NCBI RefSeq assembly: GCF_003977605.1
Contig: NZ_RYYU01000001.1
Location: forward strand, 1,812,539 to 1,876,538
Length of the DNA: 64,000 bases
DNA from: Prevotella koreensis
GTDB lineage: Bacteria; Bacteroidota; Bacteroidia; Bacteroidales; Bacteroidaceae
Direction of reading: 5' to 3'
Part shown: positions 1,087 through 59,214 of the stretch, piece after piece
Numbering within the stretch: position 1 is the stretch's first letter
Layout: each line of letters starts with the position of its first letter
Notes under the pieces: model-generated
The model's database searches: none
Seen by the model: the letters and a program-made list of their open reading frames with translations, nothing else
What the model was told of the DNA's origin: nothing
Translations under genes and position numbers: made by a program

Positions 1087-4000
1087 TCAAGAACAGAAAC
1101 TTTCAGAAATTATAACTTCGGGATTAAACAATTCTCTTTGCTGTTGTTTATTTACTGTAACATCGTCAGAGGTAATATTCTGATCTGCTAATAAAGGGTA
1201 CGATGAAAGAATTTTTATCATTTGTTCTAGAAGGACAGGCAACTTTACAGGCGTATTCTTTGTTGCTGTTTTCAGTTTGTTCACTTCTCGTTGCAGCTGT
1301 TGGAACTTACCTGTTGTAATCGCTCTCTTCGCTTGTCGGATTAGTTCAATTTCCTTTTCTGCAATATTTGGTATGGTCAAGAAACTGTCAAGATAGGCTA
1401 TAGCCTTTTTCTCGTTTGGTCCCTGTGTGGGATTAACTTTAAGTGTATTCCCTTTTTCTGCTTCTGCTCCCTCAGAAAAATTTTCAAGTGCTTTACCAAT
1501 TTGGAAATGATGAAGTTCATGCAGCGGAATCGCTTGCTCATTCACATCTGCCTTAAATATTTTTACTGCTTCAAGGAAAGTAAGTTCTTCCATTTTTCCA
1601 TCTTTATGAACAAGTGTGAAGGCATCTCTTTTGTTGTTACGAATAAATGCCAATGTTGATTTGTCTGTATTAGCGGTTCGTCTGCCTACACGGGCACGCA
1701 AAGGCATTTTTGCTATTGCTTTCAATAAATCGGGATATTCTTCTTTTTGTTTCCTCAACCACATTAAATAGCTTAACTTCTCATCGCGTTCTTCTTCAAG
1801 GCTCTTGTCAAACAAACCAAAGCTTTCTGGGGTTTCTTCATCAGAATATATCTGACTATCCTCTCCCAAGGCAGCATGGAAAGCAAAAAGTTTCATCTTG
1901 GCTTTTTTCACAAGTTCTATATCATTGTTCACCTTTTCCGTAGGAAAAAAGTTGTAAACATAGATATCTTTTGCAACACTTCCAATGCGGTTCACACGAC
2001 CTATGCGCTGCATTAGGCGTGTGGAGTTCCAAGGAGTATCATAATTCACAACGATATTGGCTCGATGCAAATTGACACCTTCTGCCAAGACTTCTGTTGT
2101 CAGTACAATATTATAATCGTTTTTCTTATTTCCTTTATAGTTTGCATCAAAATTGGCGTTCAGCAAAGGCATGTTTTCTGTACGGTTGTTGCTTCCGACC
2201 GATAAGACCTTGTTGTATCCTTGTTGTTTTAACTTTTCTGAGAGATATTTCGTAGTTTCCTTGCTTTCAGAGAATACTACCAATTTCCCTTCAAAATTAA
2301 TAGATTTATCGAATAATTGATTCTTCAGTTTATCAAGAAATACATCCAACTTCGGATCATAGTCTATCTTGTCCCATTCGGCTACCAAATTCTTCAATAA
2401 AGCATCATCTTGCTTCAACCCATCTAGATAAATTGGTTTGACAAAATCGTCTGGCGTACATACTTCTATCGTGGGGTCTGTATATGCCGACTGTTCAATT
2501 AATTTAATCAGTTCGTCTTCCTTCCCATTGCTCAATAGTTCGTTTACCTTCAAATTAGGAGCTATGTAGATAGTTCCTTTCTCAAACATTTTGAGCATCA
2601 CACAGTTTGCCTCATAGTATCGTTTCAACGACTGCTTGAAAGCGTAAAAGCTACTGTCGAGTCGTTTAACGAGCAAGGTCTTCATAATTCCTGTCAGCTG
2701 AATCGAGATTTGATCGGCTTTTTTATATTTCTTTTTTTTATCCTCGTTAAGATATTTAATGGCTTGGTATCGGAAATATGTCAGACCTTCTTTCTTATTG
2801 CTCAACACGTTGATGGTCTTGTCGTAAAGGGCACTCAAATTTTTTTCCAATTCATAATACAATGGCTGTGGCTGATGCACTGTCGGGAATTCAATCCCTT
2901 GTTCATCCAAATCTTTTTTGTAGGCTTCGTTTTCCAACAGATCTGTGCGTGTACGGCGAACTGTCAATGGCTCTACCACTTTTATACGTATCTTCTCGTA
3001 GATGCTCCTTACTTTATTTGCAATGACTGAACTGTTTTTCTCAGCTTTCACTTTCTTATAAGCATCAATCTGCTCCCTGAAGAAACGTTGCAGGTTTCCT
3101 TCTTCGAGTGTACTGTCCTTAGAATCTTGAAACAGATATACAAGGTTAGCAATATCTTCGGGCCTGTTGTTCAATGGTGTTGCCGAGACGAGAATTATTT
3201 TTTTATCGTATGGGGTTCCGTCTGTACGCAGGTGTCGAGTGGGAGTCTTGCATAACTTTTGGAGTTCGTTATACATAGTTGCAGTGTCAGTACGGAACTT
3301 ATGTGCTTCATCAACAATTATCAAGTCGTAAAGAGAAGCATCTTTTATCTTGTGTAGACTTCCATTTGTAATAATACTATAATTATCTATCTTGAATTTA
3401 GACAGGGTTTCGTCCCAACTTTCTTTCAATGCAGGTGGAACTATAACCAATGTATTGGAGCGATATGTAGGAAAATCATTGGCAAAGAAAAACTTCTTGG
3501 CTATCAAGGCTGCTACTACGGTTTTCCCCAATCCAACGACATCCGAGAGGAAAAAACCATTATGTTTCATCATCTTGGAAAAACCATCGTTTACAGCATC
3601 GACCTGATAGGACAACTTCTTAAAGCCTTTCGGTAAATCAGAGACAGAATTAGGATCAAAGTCGATGCTCTTTCCAAAGTATTCCAACAAAAACTTCAGA
3701 TACACTTCATAAGGTGTAAAGTTTGGGTTCAGATAGGATTTTTTCCTTATGGATTCTATGTGCGACAAGTCTATTTCCACAGCTTCGTTCCATAACTTTT
3801 CGAAAGTCTCGGTAGCAAATTGAATGTCGTCATCATAGCGCAGTTCTACGTTGAACTCAAAATTCTTTTCAAGTCCGGCGTCAGTAAGATTGCTTGATCC
3901 CGTTATGACAGAACCATATCCGTGCGGATGATATTCTTCTTCCCTGAAAATATAGATTTTAGCATGGATATTTTGCTTGGGGTGAATACGCATTTCTATT

Positions 4001-4792: not shown

Positions 4793-4877
4793 ACCAAAAT
4801 AGGCGAATTTGCTGACCAAAATGGGCGAATTTGCAAACCAAAACAGGCGAAATTGGTGAGCAATTTCGCCTGTTTTG
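4793..4877. repeat. 22-nt-period GGCGAAWTTG repeat with terminal hairpin (copy 1 of 4)
   Basis: Two consecutive 22-base units (ACCAAAATAGGCGAATTTGC type) are followed by a third that ends in a perfect 16-bp hairpin: AAAACAGGCGAAATTG, a 4-5 base loop, then CAATTTCGCCTGTTTT. It lies between the XRE promoter and the regulator gene ending at 5052. Related copies occur at 23838, 49059 and 59129. The hairpin could end transcription, but the direct units before it need another explanation. Confidence 0.85.
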
Positions 4878-5998: not shown

Positions 5999-6048
5999 AA
6001 TTCTTGTTTTTTAAAAGGTTTTCTACTATTCAGATTGTGATCACGTTG

Positions 6049-6080
6049 CAAAAGTAAATAAGTTTATGATATAAACCAAA
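6049..6080 (-). promoter_or_regulatory. Promoter of the membrane protein/regulator operon
   Basis: On the minus strand TTTG (complement of 6077-6080) and TACTTTTG (complement of 6049-6056) are separated by 20 bases, matching the Bacteroidetes promoter pattern. The initiation site would fall about 45 bases before the ATG at 5998. Confidence 0.65.
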
Positions 6081-6370
6081 TTATTTCATAAATATTTTGC
6101 TTGAACCCATTAATTTTAACATTTCGCATAGCATTTTTGTATGTTCCTTGTCGGTTTTATACAGGCATAGTCGTTACGTCATGTGCCTGACCGTTAGATG
6201 TTTGCTTTACCAAAACAACTTGTTTGTTATTTTTTCTTCAAAATATTTGTTCGTTTAAAATAAAAAGACTATTTTTGTGAAAATAACATAATAACACTAA
6301 TGATTATGAGAAATTCAATGAATTATCTTAACTCTGTTTGTTGCAGAAAGTAAAAAGACTCGCGTGTTAT
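6081..6370. other. Intergenic region before the tandem array
   Basis: About 290 A+T-rich bases between a divergent promoter and the first repeat unit. I see no ORF with a plausible start, no tRNA and no clear hairpin terminator. Confidence 0.6.
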
Positions 6371-6512
6371 TTTTTAGTTATCTATTGTGCTTTTGCAGGT
6401 AGCATTTACATGGTGTTTGGAACTGAGGTTTATGTAGTTCGTGGTTCCGATGGTCAAGATACGGATTCAAAGAAGTTGTGTGTTTACTAATTTATATATA
6501 GGAGATTTGGTT

Positions 6513-7355
6513 ATGAAACATTTGAAATTTTATTTGTTGTTTTTGTTTTCTGCAGTTTTGCCATTGTCTCATGCCAATGCTCAGGAGCATGAGGAGTATT
6601 ATCCACAAGGAACAACATGGGAAGAAGAGAAATTCTATGTTACAGACGATGGTAGGCTCTTTGCCGAATACCGGAAATATAAAGTGGATGGCGTTACGAC
6701 TTTCAATGGAAAGATATATAAGACAATCAAAGTGACCTATTCCAATCTTCTTGATGAGAGAACCTATTTCAACCCAATGGATACATGGAATTGGGTTGAA
6801 CAGCCGAAAATTCTCTTTCGCGAACAAGGCGATTCTATATTCTATACCAGATGGAGAAAGAATCATGAAGCATTGCGCTATGATTTCAACTGGAGTATAG
6901 GAAAAAAAATTCCCACATATTATGATTGGTGGTCAAGAGAATATCAGTATGAGGAAATAAAAGATATACATCAGGTTGTGTTATATGATGGTCAGATGTA
7001 TGATTGCATAGGGTATCATACATTGACAGATTCTGTTTCCTTTAAATTATACCAGATAAAAGGAGTCGGTTTTGTTGATAATTTTAGAGGTATTTTTGAT
7101 GTCCCCGGAGGTTATTCATTTTCCTTAAAATACCTAGATTACAAAGTAAGAATTTTCATCCGCAATGGTAAGATAATATATAAATGGGATCGTGATGTGG
7201 ACAAAATTCTTGGAATTGATAAGGTTGGAAACGACGACGGACAGAAGTGCGGGAAGACATACACGGCGTATGGAACAGAGGTTGATGCGAGCGATATGCA
7301 ATCACTGCCACGTGGAATATATATCCGCAACGGAAAGAAGTTTGTGGTGAAGTAG
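6513..7355 (+). CDS. Exported protein with C-terminal sorting-type tail (tandem copy 1)
   Basis: 280 residues from the ATG at 6513, chosen because AGGAG lies just upstream and the protein then begins with a signal peptide (residues 1-23, ending SHANA). The frame is open further upstream, but that part is repeated leader. The body is rich in aromatic and charged residues (Y, W, K, D) with no family I recognise. The last 50 residues carry GTEVDASDMQSLPRGIYI followed by RNGKKFVVK, the short tail seen on many Prevotella exported proteins and resembling type IX secretion sorting domains. The protein is probably surface-exposed or secreted. It is identical to copy 2. Confidence 0.85.
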   Translation: MKHLKFYLLFLFSAVLPLSHANAQEHEEYYPQGTTWEEEKFYVTDDGRLFAEYRKYKVDGVTTFNGKIYKTIKVTYSNLLDERTYFNPMDTWNWVEQPKILFREQGDSIFYTRWRKNHEALRYDFNWSIGKKIPTYYDWWSREYQYEEIKDIHQVVLYDGQMYDCIGYHTLTDSVSFKLYQIKGVGFVDNFRGIFDVPGGYSFSLKYLDYKVRIFIRNGKIIYKWDRDVDKILGIDKVGNDDGQKCGKTYTAYGTEVDASDMQSLPRGIYIRNGKKFVVK

Positions 7356-7499
7356 GCTTTTTAGTTATCTATTGTGCTTTTGCAGGTAGCATTTACATGG
7401 TGTTTGGAACTGAGGTTTATGTAGTTCGTGGTTCCGATGGTCAAGATACGGATTCAAAGAAGTTGTGTGTTTACTAATTTATATATAGGAGATTTGGTT

Positions 7500-8342
7500 A
7501 TGAAACATTTGAAATTTTATTTGTTGTTTTTGTTTTCTGCAGTTTTGCCATTGTCTCATGCCAATGCTCAGGAGCATGAGGAGTATTATCCACAAGGAAC
7601 AACATGGGAAGAAGAGAAATTCTATGTTACAGACGATGGTAGGCTCTTTGCCGAATACCGGAAATATAAAGTGGATGGCGTTACGACTTTCAATGGAAAG
7701 ATATATAAGACAATCAAAGTGACCTATTCCAATCTTCTTGATGAGAGAACCTATTTCAACCCAATGGATACATGGAATTGGGTTGAACAGCCGAAAATTC
7801 TCTTTCGCGAACAAGGCGATTCTATATTCTATACCAGATGGAGAAAGAATCATGAAGCATTGCGCTATGATTTCAACTGGAGTATAGGAAAAAAAATTCC
7901 CACATATTATGATTGGTGGTCAAGAGAATATCAGTATGAGGAAATAAAAGATATACATCAGGTTGTGTTATATGATGGTCAGATGTATGATTGCATAGGG
8001 TATCATACATTGACAGATTCTGTTTCCTTTAAATTATACCAGATAAAAGGAGTCGGTTTTGTTGATAATTTTAGAGGTATTTTTGATGTCCCCGGAGGTT
8101 ATTCATTTTCCTTAAAATACCTAGATTACAAAGTAAGAATTTTCATCCGCAATGGTAAGATAATATATAAATGGGATCGTGATGTGGACAAAATTCTTGG
8201 AATTGATAAGGTTGGAAACGACGACGGACAGAAGTGCGGGAAGACATACACGGCGTATGGAACAGAGGTTGATGCGAGCGATATGCAATCACTGCCACGT
8301 GGAATATATATCCGCAACGGAAAGAAGTTTGTGGTGAAGTAG
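7500..8342 (+). CDS. Exported protein with C-terminal sorting-type tail (tandem copy 2)
   Basis: The encoded protein is identical, residue for residue, to that at 6513-7355, and the DNA appears identical across the entire 987-bp unit. The start at 7500 follows the same AGGAG site and signal peptide. Because the leader is duplicated as well, each copy probably has its own promoter, so dosage may be the immediate effect. Identity at this level means either a duplication within recent generations, gene conversion, or an assembly artefact at a repeat; sequence alone cannot decide. Function is unknown. Confidence 0.85.
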   Translation: MKHLKFYLLFLFSAVLPLSHANAQEHEEYYPQGTTWEEEKFYVTDDGRLFAEYRKYKVDGVTTFNGKIYKTIKVTYSNLLDERTYFNPMDTWNWVEQPKILFREQGDSIFYTRWRKNHEALRYDFNWSIGKKIPTYYDWWSREYQYEEIKDIHQVVLYDGQMYDCIGYHTLTDSVSFKLYQIKGVGFVDNFRGIFDVPGGYSFSLKYLDYKVRIFIRNGKIIYKWDRDVDKILGIDKVGNDDGQKCGKTYTAYGTEVDASDMQSLPRGIYIRNGKKFVVK

Positions 8343-8486
8343 GCTTTTTAGTTATCTATTGTGCTTTTGCAGGTAGCATTTACATGGTGTTTGGAACTGA
8401 GGTTTATGTAGTTCGTGGTTCCGATGGTCAAGATACGGATTCAAAGAAGTTGTGTGTTTACTAATTTATATATAGGAGATTGGGTA

Positions 8487-9338
8487 ATGAAACATTTGAA
8501 ATTTTATTTGTTGTTTTTATTTTCAGCATTTTTGCCATTGTCTCATGCTAATGGTCAGGAGCATGGGGAGTATTATCCACAAGGAACAACATGGATTGAA
8601 GAGAAATTCTACGTTACATATAATGATGGATTCTTTTCCGAATTCCGTAAATACAGGGTGGATGGGGGAACGGATTTCAACGGAAAGAAATATAAGATAA
8701 TCAATGTGGATTATCGTAAGTTGGCCAATTCGGAAGACTATTACGACCCTATTGAAACATGGAATTGGATTGAACAGCCGAAAATTCTCATTCGCGAACA
8801 AGGCGATTCGATATACTATATTAGGCCGGGAAAAGACCATGAAGCCCTGCGCTATGATTTCGACTGGCATATAGGAAAACAGATTCCTATATATTATGAT
8901 TGGTATGAAAATAAATATTATTATGAGAAATTAAAAAAAATCTATAAGGTCAAATTGCTTGATGGTAACACTTATGCTTACATTAGATATCAAGTTGAGG
9001 GTGCTCCGGAACGTACGGATATATTCCAGATAAATGGAATTGGTTACACCGGTTACGATGGACTATACGAAGGGATTTTTGATGGTGCCGATGGTTTTTT
9101 TCTTTCCTTACGGTATAGAGATTACAAACTTATCAGTTTCACCCGAAATGATCAGTTGATATATAAATGGGATCGTGATGTGGACAAGATATTGGGTATT
9201 GATAAGGTTGAAAACGACGACGGACAGAAGTGCGGGAAGACATACACGGTATATGGAACAGAGGTTGATGCGAGCGATATGCAATCACTGCCACGTGGAA
9301 TATATATCCGCAATGGAAAGAAGTTTGTGGTGAAGTAG
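8487..9338 (+). CDS. Exported protein with C-terminal sorting-type tail (diverged tandem copy 3)
   Basis: 283 residues from the ATG at 8487. The leader, the first 20 or so residues (one V-to-F change and few others) and the last 55 residues nearly match copies 1 and 2. The central part (about residues 40-225) is only moderately similar: for example YNDGFFSEFRKYRVDGG replaces DDGRLFAEYRKYKVDGV, and a three-residue insertion is present. A conserved frame around a variable middle suggests diversifying selection on the exposed part, or end-to-end gene conversion. It has the same signal peptide and SLPRGIYIRNGKKFVVK tail. Function is unknown; a surface or secreted location is likely. Confidence 0.85.
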   Translation: MKHLKFYLLFLFSAFLPLSHANGQEHGEYYPQGTTWIEEKFYVTYNDGFFSEFRKYRVDGGTDFNGKKYKIINVDYRKLANSEDYYDPIETWNWIEQPKILIREQGDSIYYIRPGKDHEALRYDFDWHIGKQIPIYYDWYENKYYYEKLKKIYKVKLLDGNTYAYIRYQVEGAPERTDIFQINGIGYTGYDGLYEGIFDGADGFFLSLRYRDYKLISFTRNDQLIYKWDRDVDKILGIDKVENDDGQKCGKTYTVYGTEVDASDMQSLPRGIYIRNGKKFVVK

Positions 9339-9424
9339 TGTTTGGAGCGGAGGTTTTTTAAATTCGCGAATAAACTGTATGTAGGAAAAAACAATAATAT
9401 CCGATAAATCGGGTTTATATAGCA

Positions 9425-10734: not shown

Positions 10735-11460
10735 CTATAATGAGTAATAGGTTATAGTACGTTTCTCTACCTCTTCCTCATTGGTTATTGTCTTGTTCTT
10801 TTCCTCGCCTTCTTCCCATTGCTCACTGTGTTGCTTGCACTTGCGCTCTATCCAGTTGCCTTGCTTGTCGAATTTGGTGTAAGTGTAAGTTCTCGTAAAC
10901 TTCCCGATATCCGCAGACATTAGCCAATCTTCTACTTGTTTGATGCAAAGACCATCGCTATTATATTTATATTCAATTTCGCTTCCGGTTTCCCAGCCAT
11001 TGCTCAAAAGTTTAATAACTTGCCCATTGGCGTTATAAGTAATTTCCTTGATATCGAGAAACCAGTGCCTATCATCTAATTTCGGTTCGTAAGCATATCT
11101 GATAAGTTGTCCTTTTGCATTCCGCTTAGACGAGAAATATTTGCCCACAGCGTTTCCGTTCTCGAATTTGAAGTCCTTTTCTTCGTCATTGCACGGGCAT
11201 GAAACAAGCATGCCATTCTCATCGAAGGTCACGGTATATGTTTCTTCTCCATCGTATTTCACTGTCTTGACATGACCTTTCACATCGAAGAGCATAAGGT
11301 CAGGGCTAACGAATTTGGCGTTGTCGGTAGCACTTTTTGCCACCTTGTCGTTTTTGTTTGAAATACTATCCGACTTTGAGCCGTCATTTTCCACTTTCTT
11401 GTTGAGATTGCATGAAGTCATAACCGCCATACAAAGCCCTAAAAAAATAATTCTCTTCAT
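10735..11460 (-). CDS. Lipoprotein with YD/RHS-like segments (paralogue 1)
   Basis: 241 residues with a lipoprotein signal: the lipobox MTSC places the modified cysteine at residue 17. The mature part has repeated short strands like those of RHS/YD proteins: TYNANGQVIKLLSNG, IEYKYNSDGLCIKQV and YTYTKFDKQGNWIERK. The order matches the gene next to it, 64 bases upstream on the same strand, and the C-termini end in near-identical KTITNEEEVEKRTITYY segments. It is probably anchored in the outer membrane, facing the periplasm or the surface. No enzymatic motif is visible and the function is unknown. Confidence 0.85.
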   Translation of the reverse strand: MKRIIFLGLCMAVMTSCNLNKKVENDGSKSDSISNKNDKVAKSATDNAKFVSPDLMLFDVKGHVKTVKYDGEETYTVTFDENGMLVSCPCNDEEKDFKFENGNAVGKYFSSKRNAKGQLIRYAYEPKLDDRHWFLDIKEITYNANGQVIKLLSNGWETGSEIEYKYNSDGLCIKQVEDWLMSADIGKFTRTYTYTKFDKQGNWIERKCKQHSEQWEEGEEKNKTITNEEEVEKRTITYYSL

Positions 11461-11523: not shown

Positions 11524-12240
11524 TCAGTAGTAGGTGATTGTTCGTTTCTCTATCTTTTCCTCATTGGTTATTGTCTTGTCGTCTTCTTCATCGAATGTCC
11601 ATTCCTCACTGTGTTGCTTGCACTTGCGTTCTGTCCAGTTGCCTTGTTCGTCGAATTTGGTGTAAGTGTAAGTTGTCGTAGCCTTATAGACTAATGATTC
11701 CATTTGTGCATCATCTACTTCTTCGATGCAAAGGCCTTCGTTATTATATTTATATTCAGTTTCGCACATGCTTTCCCAGCCGGAAGTTAGAAGTTTAGAA
11801 ACTCGTCCGTCGGCATTATAAGTTATTTCCTTTACATCAAGGAAGTAGCATAATTCGCCTTCCGGTCTGTAAGCATATTCTGTAAGTTGGCCTTTGTTGT
11901 TGCGCTTAGACGAGAAATATTTGCCCACAGCCTTTCCGTTCTCGAACTTGAAGTCCTTGTATTCGTTATTATAATTGCATGAAGCAAGCATACCATTCTT
12001 GTCGAAAGTAATGACGTATGGGTTTTCACGATGATATTTTACCTCCTTGACATGGCCTTTCACCTCGAATAGCAAAAGGTCAGAGGTAATGAATTCGGCA
12101 TCGTCGAGAAAGGCTAATATGGCCTTGCCGTTAATGTTTGAGAGACTATCAGACTTAGACTTATCATTTTCCCCTTTCTTGTTGGTATTGCATGAAATCA
12201 TAATTCCCAAACAAAGCCCTAAAAAAATAATTTTCTTCAT
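11524..12240 (-). CDS. Lipoprotein with YD/RHS-like segments (paralogue 2)
   Basis: 238 residues, paralogous to the gene at 10735-11460 along its full length. The lipobox MISC gives a modified cysteine at residue 17. The matching landmarks are ITYNADGRVSKLLTSGWES, TEYKYNNEGLCIEEV and YTYTKFDEQGNWTERK. It is the promoter-proximal member of the pair. Divergence from its neighbour is substantial outside these segments, so the duplication is older than that of the 6.4-9.3 kb array. Function is unknown; an envelope location follows from the lipobox. Confidence 0.85.
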   Translation of the reverse strand: MKKIIFLGLCLGIMISCNTNKKGENDKSKSDSLSNINGKAILAFLDDAEFITSDLLLFEVKGHVKEVKYHRENPYVITFDKNGMLASCNYNNEYKDFKFENGKAVGKYFSSKRNNKGQLTEYAYRPEGELCYFLDVKEITYNADGRVSKLLTSGWESMCETEYKYNNEGLCIEEVDDAQMESLVYKATTTYTYTKFDEQGNWTERKCKQHSEEWTFDEEDDKTITNEEKIEKRTITYY

Positions 12241-23837: not shown

Positions 23838-23928
23838 ACCAATCCGGGCGAAATTGCAAAGCAAAATGGGCGAATTTGAAAAGTAATTTCGCCCATTTTG
23901 GTCAGCAATTTCGCCCATTTTGCTCTGC
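23838..23928. repeat. 22-nt-period GGCGAAWTTG repeat with hairpin (copy 2 of 4)
   Basis: Two direct units (GGGCGAAATTGCAAAG and CAAAATGGGCGAATTTG) are followed by two inverted units (TAATTTCGCCCATTTTG, CAATTTCGCCCATTTTG). The arrangement is therefore a two-by-two palindrome. It occupies the divergent region between the FKBP promoter and the gene at 24351. Confidence 0.85.
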
Positions 23929-24229: not shown

Positions 24230-24350
24230 CAAAAGTTAGATACATTAATCTATACAGAAAAACAAATATCCTAATCAGCAAACAAATGCCCGATCCTCCG
24301 ATTTGGCGTTGGCTTTAATGGGTAGTTTCAATAGTGAGATATTACTAACA

Positions 24351-25763
24351 ATGAAATCAAAAATACTAAAGAATGTGTATGCAACCATCGCTGCACTGTT
24401 CATCGCACTGTTCGCCATGCCCACCATGGTGCAGGCAGAGACTTACGACCTTAAAATTTGTGGCACGGCTGTAACTTCTGACAACTGTAACGACCTTTCC
24501 GTGATTGAAGGTGTAAGAGGAACGGTAAAGTACGACCCGGTCAACAAGGTTCTTACGCTGCAAGATGCTACAATCAGTAGTTCTGACTACAATGCCATTG
24601 TTTCGTTCATCGACGACTTGACGATAAAGGTTATTGACAGAAACCACCTTGAAACTACAGACAAAACAACTGTCATTGCCTATAAGCCGCTGAGTATCAC
24701 AGGTGACGGATTACTTGAAGTGAGAAGCGTTGACGACAGTGCTATTATTTTAGAGAGCACCAACCTCACCATCCAAGACTGTGCCGTGAATGCTGAAGGT
24801 GGGAAATGGGGCATAGCGGGAAAGTATGGCAATAACGAGAAATTGTCTGTCATAAATGCTATGGTAAAAGCCATAGGAAAAGAATGCGGTTCTATCTGCC
24901 ACATCGCCGAGTTATATCTGGAGGACTGTAATATTTTTGAGCCTTCAATAGCATGGTTTAATGAATCAGAGCACGCTGTAGTTATGAACGGAGAAATAGT
25001 AAAAAGCGAGGTGATGATACTGAATTATATGGTATATAACCTTAAAATCTATGGCGAGTATGTAACTTATGTAAATTTTAACGACCTTTCTGTGATTGAC
25101 GGTGTCAGCGGAACAGTGAAGTATGACCCGATTGCCAGGGTTCTTACGCTGCATGATGCTACAATCAGTTGTTATAGCGGCGATGCCATTCATTCTAACA
25201 TTGACGGCTTGACGATAAAGATTATTGGTACAAACAACATTACAACAGAAAACAGTTCAACTGTTAAAGCCTATAAGCCGATGAGTATCATAGGCAGCGG
25301 AGTTCTTAATGTGAAGAGCAATGCCGAATGTGCTATTTATGTAGAAGGAACCGATCTTACAATCGAAAACTGTACCGTGAATGCTGAGGGTATAGATTGC
25401 GGCATAGCAGGATTAGAGGGAGAAAACGAGAAGTTGACCATCAGAAATGCCAAGGTAACAGCCTTAGGTACAGAAAAAGGTTCTATCCGCGACTTCTCCG
25501 AACTCAATATGATAGGCTGTTGCATCACCGAGCCTATGGGAGCATGGTTCAGTAAATCAAAGCACGCTGTAGTTCTGAATGGAGAAATAGTAAAGAGCAA
25601 GGTGGTGATTGATGAAATTCCTGCCGGCGTTGAAACTCCTGTTTCCGACAATACAGGCGTACAAGGCACATATACCCTTAGCGGTATCCGCCTGTCCGGT
25701 GAACCGGAAGACCTTCCAAAGGGCGTTTACATCGTGAACGGTAAGAAAGTAGTGAAGCCATAG
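24351..25763 (+). CDS. Exported two-repeat beta-helix-like protein with sorting-type tail
   Basis: 470 residues from the ATG at 24351, where a signal peptide begins (residues 1-24, ending VQA); the longer upstream frame lacks support. Two homologous blocks of about 195 residues follow. Each has DLSVI.GV.GTVKYDP, LTL.DATIS, LTIK.I, then LTI..C.VNAEG, LT/S.(R)NA.V.A.G and EHAVV.NGEIVKS. The short regularly spaced strands suggest a right-handed beta-helix like those of adhesins and carbohydrate-active proteins, but no catalytic signature is visible. The C-terminus ends DLPKGVYIVNGKKVVKP, the sorting-type tail shared by several exported proteins in this window. Function is unknown. Confidence 0.85.
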   Translation: MKSKILKNVYATIAALFIALFAMPTMVQAETYDLKICGTAVTSDNCNDLSVIEGVRGTVKYDPVNKVLTLQDATISSSDYNAIVSFIDDLTIKVIDRNHLETTDKTTVIAYKPLSITGDGLLEVRSVDDSAIILESTNLTIQDCAVNAEGGKWGIAGKYGNNEKLSVINAMVKAIGKECGSICHIAELYLEDCNIFEPSIAWFNESEHAVVMNGEIVKSEVMILNYMVYNLKIYGEYVTYVNFNDLSVIDGVSGTVKYDPIARVLTLHDATISCYSGDAIHSNIDGLTIKIIGTNNITTENSSTVKAYKPMSIIGSGVLNVKSNAECAIYVEGTDLTIENCTVNAEGIDCGIAGLEGENEKLTIRNAKVTALGTEKGSIRDFSELNMIGCCITEPMGAWFSKSKHAVVLNGEIVKSKVVIDEIPAGVETPVSDNTGVQGTYTLSGIRLSGEPEDLPKGVYIVNGKKVVKP

Positions 25764-49017: not shown

Positions 49018-49058
49018 ACATAATCGTTTTCGTTGCTATTTGCTAAGAACTTCTTTTT

Positions 49059-49122
49059 AATTTCGGCGATTTTGAAAAGTAAATTCGCCGAAATTGGTCT
49101 GCAAATTGGGCGAGATTGCTGA
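49059..49122. repeat. 22-nt-period GGCGAAWTTG repeat (copy 3 of 4, degenerate)
   Basis: AATTTCGGCGATTTTGAAAAG, then TAAATTCGCCGAAATTGGTC, then CAAATTGGGCGAGATTG. The first two form a stem of AATTTCGGCGA with TCGCCGAAATT. It lies between the toxin gene and the next promoter. Confidence 0.7.
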
Positions 49123-59128: not shown

Positions 59129-59214
59129 GAACAAAATGGGCGAAATTGCAAATCAATTTGGGCGAATTTGAAAACCAAAACAGGCGAAATTGATGAGCAA
59201 TTTCGCCTGTTTTG
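59129..59214. repeat. 22-nt-period GGCGAAWTTG repeat with hairpin (copy 4 of 4)
   Basis: Three direct units (CAAAATGGGCGAAATTGC, CAATTTGGGCGAATTTG, CCAAAACAGGCGAAATTG) end in the same hairpin as copy 1 (CAAAACAGGCGAAATTG with CAATTTCGCCTGTTTTG). It lies between the tRNA and metG. Confidence 0.85.

Follow-up and report, generated by a model that had tools for sequence, protein, structure and literature searches.

Three tandem units of a gene for a probable T9SS-type exported protein in Prevotella koreensis, likely shaped by duplication and exchange

Within a 64-kb stretch of the Prevotella koreensis chromosome (hereafter the window) three units of one gene lie head to tail, the first two identical and the third nearly so at both ends and diverged in its middle, and in a sister species the same locus holds a single copy. 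We consider it probable that the gene encodes a T9SS-type exported protein and that duplication, together with exchange between the units, has shaped its tandem array. By this explanation all units would be read in one direction from a single promoter, and copy number would shift when the identical leaders (and gene ends) undergo unequal homologous recombination, most recently in a duplication of unit 1 that would have given unit 2. Gene conversion or crossing over would keep the leader, the signal peptide and the C-terminal export tail near-identical, with the central domain of unit 3 remaining different while the ends exchange. The observation is sound, and its interpretation half proven.

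Layout of the array and the sister locus

The array comprises the following features:
6371..7357, + strand: unit 1 (leader 6371-6512, coding sequence 6513-7355, 280 aa)
7358..8344, + strand: unit 2 (leader 7358-7499, coding sequence 7500-8342, 280 aa), identical to unit 1
8345..9338, + strand: unit 3 (leader 8345-8486, coding sequence 8487-9338, 283 aa), a mosaic
8577..9170, + strand: diverged middle of unit 3, equivalent to codons 31-225 of unit 1 (dS 0.49-0.83 against unit 1, about 0.2 at the ends)
9171..9335, + strand: C-terminal sorting-like tail of unit 3, near-identical to 7188-7352 and 8175-8339

An initial sequence-only reading had proposed that units 1 and 2 are identical over 987 bases, leaders included, and 6371-7357 does equal 7358-8344 letter for letter; the exact match at offset 987 runs from 6371 to 7494 (1124 nt), and a perfect 987-nt repeat is far beyond chance. 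Zero differences place the 95% upper bound on divergence between these two units at 0.3%. The same reading described unit 3 as alike at both ends with a diverged middle, which is borne out by the difference counts: compared with unit 2, there are none in the first 137 nt (non-coding leader), 11 in the first 260 nt and 13 at the 3' end (8160-8345), just 3 of them within 8216-8342, and identity in the middle falls to 11/30 in single 30-nt bins. The proteins of units 1 and 3 are 66% identical. No further copy of the gene was found in the genome beyond the three units, one extra place (E 0.005) matching only in the tail of another, longer protein, and no leader copy was found in the genome beyond the three, the six further matches being short and weak.

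The genome (2.69 Mb, 2 contigs, 99.9% complete) carries the window on a contig of 2,685,380 bases. The other contig (6160 bases) is unplaced and holds chromosomal-type genes, which we take to be U32-peptidase-like and TonB-receptor-like; its first large gene is absent elsewhere in the genome. Two other kinds of repeat were seen in the window. A second tandem pair (10735-11460 and 11524-12240, - strand) is lipoprotein-like, with repeat segments 76-84% alike and a weak RHS-repeat similarity below the cut-off, and the sister locus retains only a remnant of it near 7880-8122. A 22-nt repeat (CAAAATGGGCGAAATTG core) forms four small arrays (4795-4877, 23840-23922, 49058-49118 and 59132-59214), every one with units on both strands, and matches 14 times with at most 3 mismatches, against 0.44 expected.

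The sister species is represented by the MAG Prevotellaceae bacterium SUG1800 (locus L068; G391 in the wider sample), which has the gene order of the window: winged-helix protein, membrane protein, family gene, glycosyltransferase, then two more. Five flanking proteins are 72.0-90.4% identical between the two, and the two outer flank genes are presumably those of an S46-peptidase-like and a flippase-like protein. The family gene is established there as a single copy, with about 64% identity and a broken reading frame (6002-6842), the break being either real or a MAG sequencing error, and no direct repeats of at least 30 nt were found in the 12.8-kb sister stretch. Since a sister with the same neighbour genes has a single, frame-broken copy, the array is confined, as far as the searched genomes go, to the lineage of the window.

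Exchange between units and relics of lost copies

Between units 1 and 3, dS (NG86) is 0.21 in codons 1-30, 0.53 in 31-78, 0.49 in 79-140, 0.83 in 141-225 and 0.19 in 226-280, and the corresponding values between unit 1 and the sister are 0.56, 0.92, 1.04, 1.04 and 0.91. Counted as synonymous differences per site, units 1 and 3 differ by 0.175 (9/51) at the ends and 0.431 (48/111) in the middle (Fisher p=0.0014, somewhat optimistic because the segment borders were set after viewing the alignment). The same counts are 0.485 (25/52) and 0.555 (61/110) between unit 1 and the sister (p=0.40), and 0.513 (26/51) and 0.553 (61/110) between unit 3 and the sister (p=0.61). End-specific homogenisation of the units is established by this comparison, and since divergence at the ends is low between units but not between species, the likeness of the ends would point to recombination rather than constraint. 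The exact repeat and this synonymous contrast together support the proposal of a recent tandem duplication with a mosaic third copy.

Recombination breakpoints had also been suggested as a check, and the affinity of the units to the sister does shift along the gene: the order of the 149 sites joining one unit to the sister against the other unit is non-random (permutation p=0.0058, strongest change near codon 141), in a test that uses one outgroup with a frame-broken gene and whose signal a faster right half of unit 3 could mimic. Unit 3 is nearer the sister in codons 79-140 (dS 0.54, versus 1.04 for unit 1) and unit 1 is nearer in codons 141-225 (dN 0.27, versus 0.48 for unit 3). A longest-run test was moderate (p=0.018 to 0.043, with p=0.018 for the runs at columns 789-828 and 286-304), and one of the two longest runs (columns 286-304) lies mid-gene and not at an end, which was less expected. 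The segments disagree on which came first, the separation of units 1 and 3 or the divergence from the sister.

Around and within the leaders three further features were located:
6246..6277, + strand: promoter-like site TTTG-N20-TATTTTTG (Bacteroidota type) upstream of unit 1, from a pattern scan
6407..6434, also 7394-7421 and 8381-8408, + strand: fossil of the gene's own 3' coding end in the leader, 24/28 nt equal to the 3' end of the sister gene
9339..9356, + strand: possible leader remnant directly after the unit 3 stop, 16/18 nt matching the leader; weak

The promoter pattern, which we take to be the Bacteroidota consensus, is weak alone, with 15 matches in the 64-kb window on both strands, two of them inside unit coding sequence. 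A like site stands shortly before the single gene in the sister (5936), its position conserved by alignment. The pattern scan found no Bacteroidota-type promoter-like sites within the leaders, and no terminators were found between units on the + strand. Since the one promoter-like site lies upstream of unit 1 and the leaders have none, the units look co-transcribed, not alternately expressed.

The leader fossil is established: its match to the sister 3' end scores 40, the best of 2000 shuffles reaching 26.5, and it also matches the 3' end of unit 2 at 22/28 nt (0/2000 shuffles as high). Only a short spacer separates the promoter-like site from the start codon in the sister, and the window has about 200 extra nt there. 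In the simplest history an upstream unit would have been lost except for its 3' end, and the remaining piece would then have been copied along with the units.

The leader remnant that the sequence-only reading had placed after unit 3 fared less well. The 16/18 nt similarity stands (2/2000 shuffles reach its score with one scoring scheme, 0/2000 with another), but it is weaker evidence than the fossil, one of the 1264 other 86-nt window segments compared with the leader scoring above the post-unit-3 stretch (28 versus 26). Nor does that stretch look clearly like ancestral flank, because the sister 3' flank gives no significant alignment there (690/2000 shuffles as good). Repeated expansion and loss, as had been proposed, is supported mainly by the fossil and less by the remnant.

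Three other ideas about the leader region and the array found no support. Positions 6290-6370 do not resemble the start of a lost unit (46/2000 shuffles as good against the unit 1 start, 445/2000 against the sister start). The leader matches no Rfam family or structured RNA, and its folding is on average poorer than that of shuffled versions (z 1.63). A mobile-element origin was rejected, with no protein match in plasmids and no exact 31-nt leader piece in viral contigs.

The encoded protein and its export tail

Each unit protein (280-283 aa) starts with a signal peptide whose expected cleavage lies before Gln, continues in a beta-rich central domain and ends in a C-terminal tail that resembles T9SS sorting domains. 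The expected cleavage site reads (A/G)Q in 11/11 aligned homologues, with Gln at residue 19-26 and at 24 in the units; the Sec signal peptide in Bacteroidota is usually cleaved before Gln (Q-rule; PMC5837995, excerpt). The whole protein matched no named family in Pfam and NCBIfam, the sorting-domain models TIGR04183 and PF18962 gave no match in the unit proteins, and the units are absent among the 34 TIGR04183 places of the genome (E<=1). When 12 family tails were aligned by hhalign with 12 TIGR04183-matching tails of the same genome, the two sets showed a resemblance (91.8%, E 7e-7, 35 columns). That genome has 22 places above the TIGR04183 cut-off (1/14 control genomes also has matches above it) and T9SS machinery, with SprA_N present, versus 0/14 control genomes. 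It also encodes a C25 protein in a 1194-aa frame, and this large protein may be PorU-like. The unit proteins are therefore predicted to be exported by the T9SS to the surface or the extracellular space, and the earlier claim of an exported protein gains support from the signal peptide and the T9SS-like tail.

The predicted structure (a model built from 8 sequences, mean pLDDT 72.7) has a mostly beta central domain. Foldseek returned no match to it at E<=0.001 (best E-value 0.045), and VIA-align of model residues 30-217 gave 3fzx (Z 7.1, rmsd 5.7, 157 aligned) and 4fvs (Z 6.7, rmsd 5.0, 145 aligned), a likeness to YmcC-like and LolA-like folds no higher than a common arrangement alone can give. 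By sequence, the solved relatives match only in the tail (arabinanase 4kca, E 1.5e-7), and the other ten solved-structure hits (E 0.27-0.86) are not credible. Naming a function from the fold was dropped, the structural matches being too weak and no solved relative convincing. Codons 141-225 show a dN/dS of about 0.55 between units 1 and 3 (dN 0.463, dS 0.834), high yet below 1. Our best guess is an exported, surface-held or released protein that would meet outside ligands, its central domain drifting fast and its export signals kept alike.

The named relatives found belong to Prevotella and Prevotellaceae, plus one Bacteroidaceae. Among 398 genomes of the genus no close relative was found besides the window genome and SUG1800 (next best E 2.3e-35). 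In a sample of 299, matches at E<=0.001 occur in 77 genomes, that of the window among them, mostly covering the last 50-70 residues alone within larger proteins, and the roughly full-length family places outside the window genome number 13 in 12 genomes. Since tail-only matches are common and full-length ones few, the tail is a module shared among proteins, and the central domain belongs to a family found less often. A similar LPKGVYIVNGKK-type tail was seen in the window at 24303-25763, in a 486-aa frame with an internal duplication (24448 and 25039, 76%).

We compared 15 full-length loci (the window, L068, L069, L070, L007, L008, L071, L072, L011, L012, L014, L015, L073, L091 and L092; a second G281 place and the G199 and G071 places, all full-length, were left out). 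The family gene is single in the sister and in most loci looked at. In at least six the family gene is directly preceded by a C25 peptidase frame that Pfam confirms, a lower bound since the remaining loci were judged from open-frame lists, some with short flanks; the window and the sister locus have none directly upstream. The six loci with the gingipain-like C25 peptidase are:
L008, L072 (tested as L010), L011, L014, L073 and L092

The peptidase is a candidate partner of the family gene in these loci, perhaps in a substrate or inhibitor relation. In L072 the C25 and family gene pair is flanked by 98-nt direct repeats (3383-3480 and 6818-6915, 98% alike).

The family's export tail could work as a cassette for recombination: cargo genes that lie side by side, whether related or not, would copy one another's 3' ends roughly as far as the stop codon, which would let them trade central domains under a constant export address; on present evidence we think this rather unlikely. 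In L073, from a Bacteroidaceae MAG, two family genes lie behind a C25 peptidase gene, and their 3' ends are identical over more than 240 nt (four 60-column bins in a row match fully), the identity running out at the stop codon. In L069 the end of the family gene, stop included, recurs at 92% over 74 nt in an upstream frame of a different kind (233-306 versus 1347-1420). Both sequences come from MAGs, in which assembly errors are possible. Among the other T9SS clusters of the window genome 0/6 have direct repeats of at least 40 nt, so such exchange is not general in this genome.

Alternative readings and comparison with known systems

The duplication may have been transient, neutral or dosage-driven and of no lasting importance, with unit 3 simply an older paralogue, a possibility to which we give somewhat less than an even chance. 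Tandem duplications are common and unstable in bacteria, the absence of differences between units 1 and 2 implies a very young event or very recent exchange, and the broken sister copy suggests that the gene may be dispensable there. Alone, however, such a history predicts neither the end-specific homogenisation of units 1 and 3 nor the leader fossil, and it concerns the consequence of the array, being compatible with duplication and exchange as the explanation of its structure.

A dedicated surface-variation system, in which the units serve as donors to one expressed copy, is improbable. It would fit a likely exported protein with shared ends and a diverged, fast middle (dN/dS about 0.55), but that ratio lies below 1, the three units are all complete genes with no silent partial cassettes, the promoter-like site stands before unit 1 with none in the leaders, and the gene is single in the sister and most loci seen. 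It is plausible, as the sequence-only reading had proposed, that recombination in the array could create new surface variants.

An origin of unit 2 as an assembly artefact is quite improbable. The leaders of units 1 and 3 are identical over 137 nt, so a graph loop through unit 1 could have been walked twice to give two copies of unit 1 followed by unit 3, and the data look as a double walk would leave them, with no differences between units 1 and 2 and divergence to unit 3 starting only at 7495; moreover the genome is in two pieces, the second (6160 bases with chromosomal-type genes) unplaced. Against this, the 2.685 Mb main contig holds at least 3 16S loci, two of them complete with equal score, so long repeats were resolved, and the N runs in rRNA, whose ends fall on the 2500-base grid that the window start also follows, look like masking rather than gaps. 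Even if unit 2 were an artefact, units 1 and 3 stay a tandem pair.

Selection on the signal peptide and export tail without recombination is very improbable and already disfavoured: the tail is indeed the most widely shared part of the protein, but synonymous divergence at the ends is low between units only, not between species, and the leader that is identical over 137 nt is non-coding.

Duplication with exchange between units, the reading we prefer, has counterparts elsewhere. The bab paralogues of Helicobacter pylori have N-terminal homology, middle variable and C-terminal homology regions, with gene conversion in the 5' and 3' regions (PMC4552749, excerpt). As in the array, conserved ends surround a variable middle and the ends are homogenised (for the array, p=0.0014 between units, 0.40 between species). 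The bab genes, however, lie at separate loci whereas the window units are adjacent, and babB has CT repeats for phase variation whereas none were seen in the units, whose export looks T9SS-like; the comparison is one of working alike and not of membership of the Bab family. In Porphyromonas gingivalis the T9SS cargo proteins Kgp, RgpA and HagA have diversified by domain rearrangement and recombination (PMC5266723, excerpt). They share with the array a conserved C-terminal domain and T9SS-type cargo, but are large proteases or adhesins with repeated internal domains, whereas the array has tandem units of a 280-aa protein. The Paraprevotella clara proteins 00502 and 00509, T9SS-dependent surface proteins that recruit trypsin (PMC9477747, excerpt), exemplify a cargo role in a related gut genus, with no sequence link claimed. 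Targeted searches found no literature on the family of the unit proteins, nor on an exchange of tails among T9SS cargo genes.

With its single-copy sister locus for comparison, the array is a small and clear instance of duplication, fossil copies and end homogenisation among exported-protein genes. As the evidence stands, it neatly illustrates a known process in a protein family that has been little studied, and the locus gains interest only if tail-centred exchange proves general. If that were true, the export tail as a general recombination handle would help to account for the diversification of secreted proteins in Bacteroidota.
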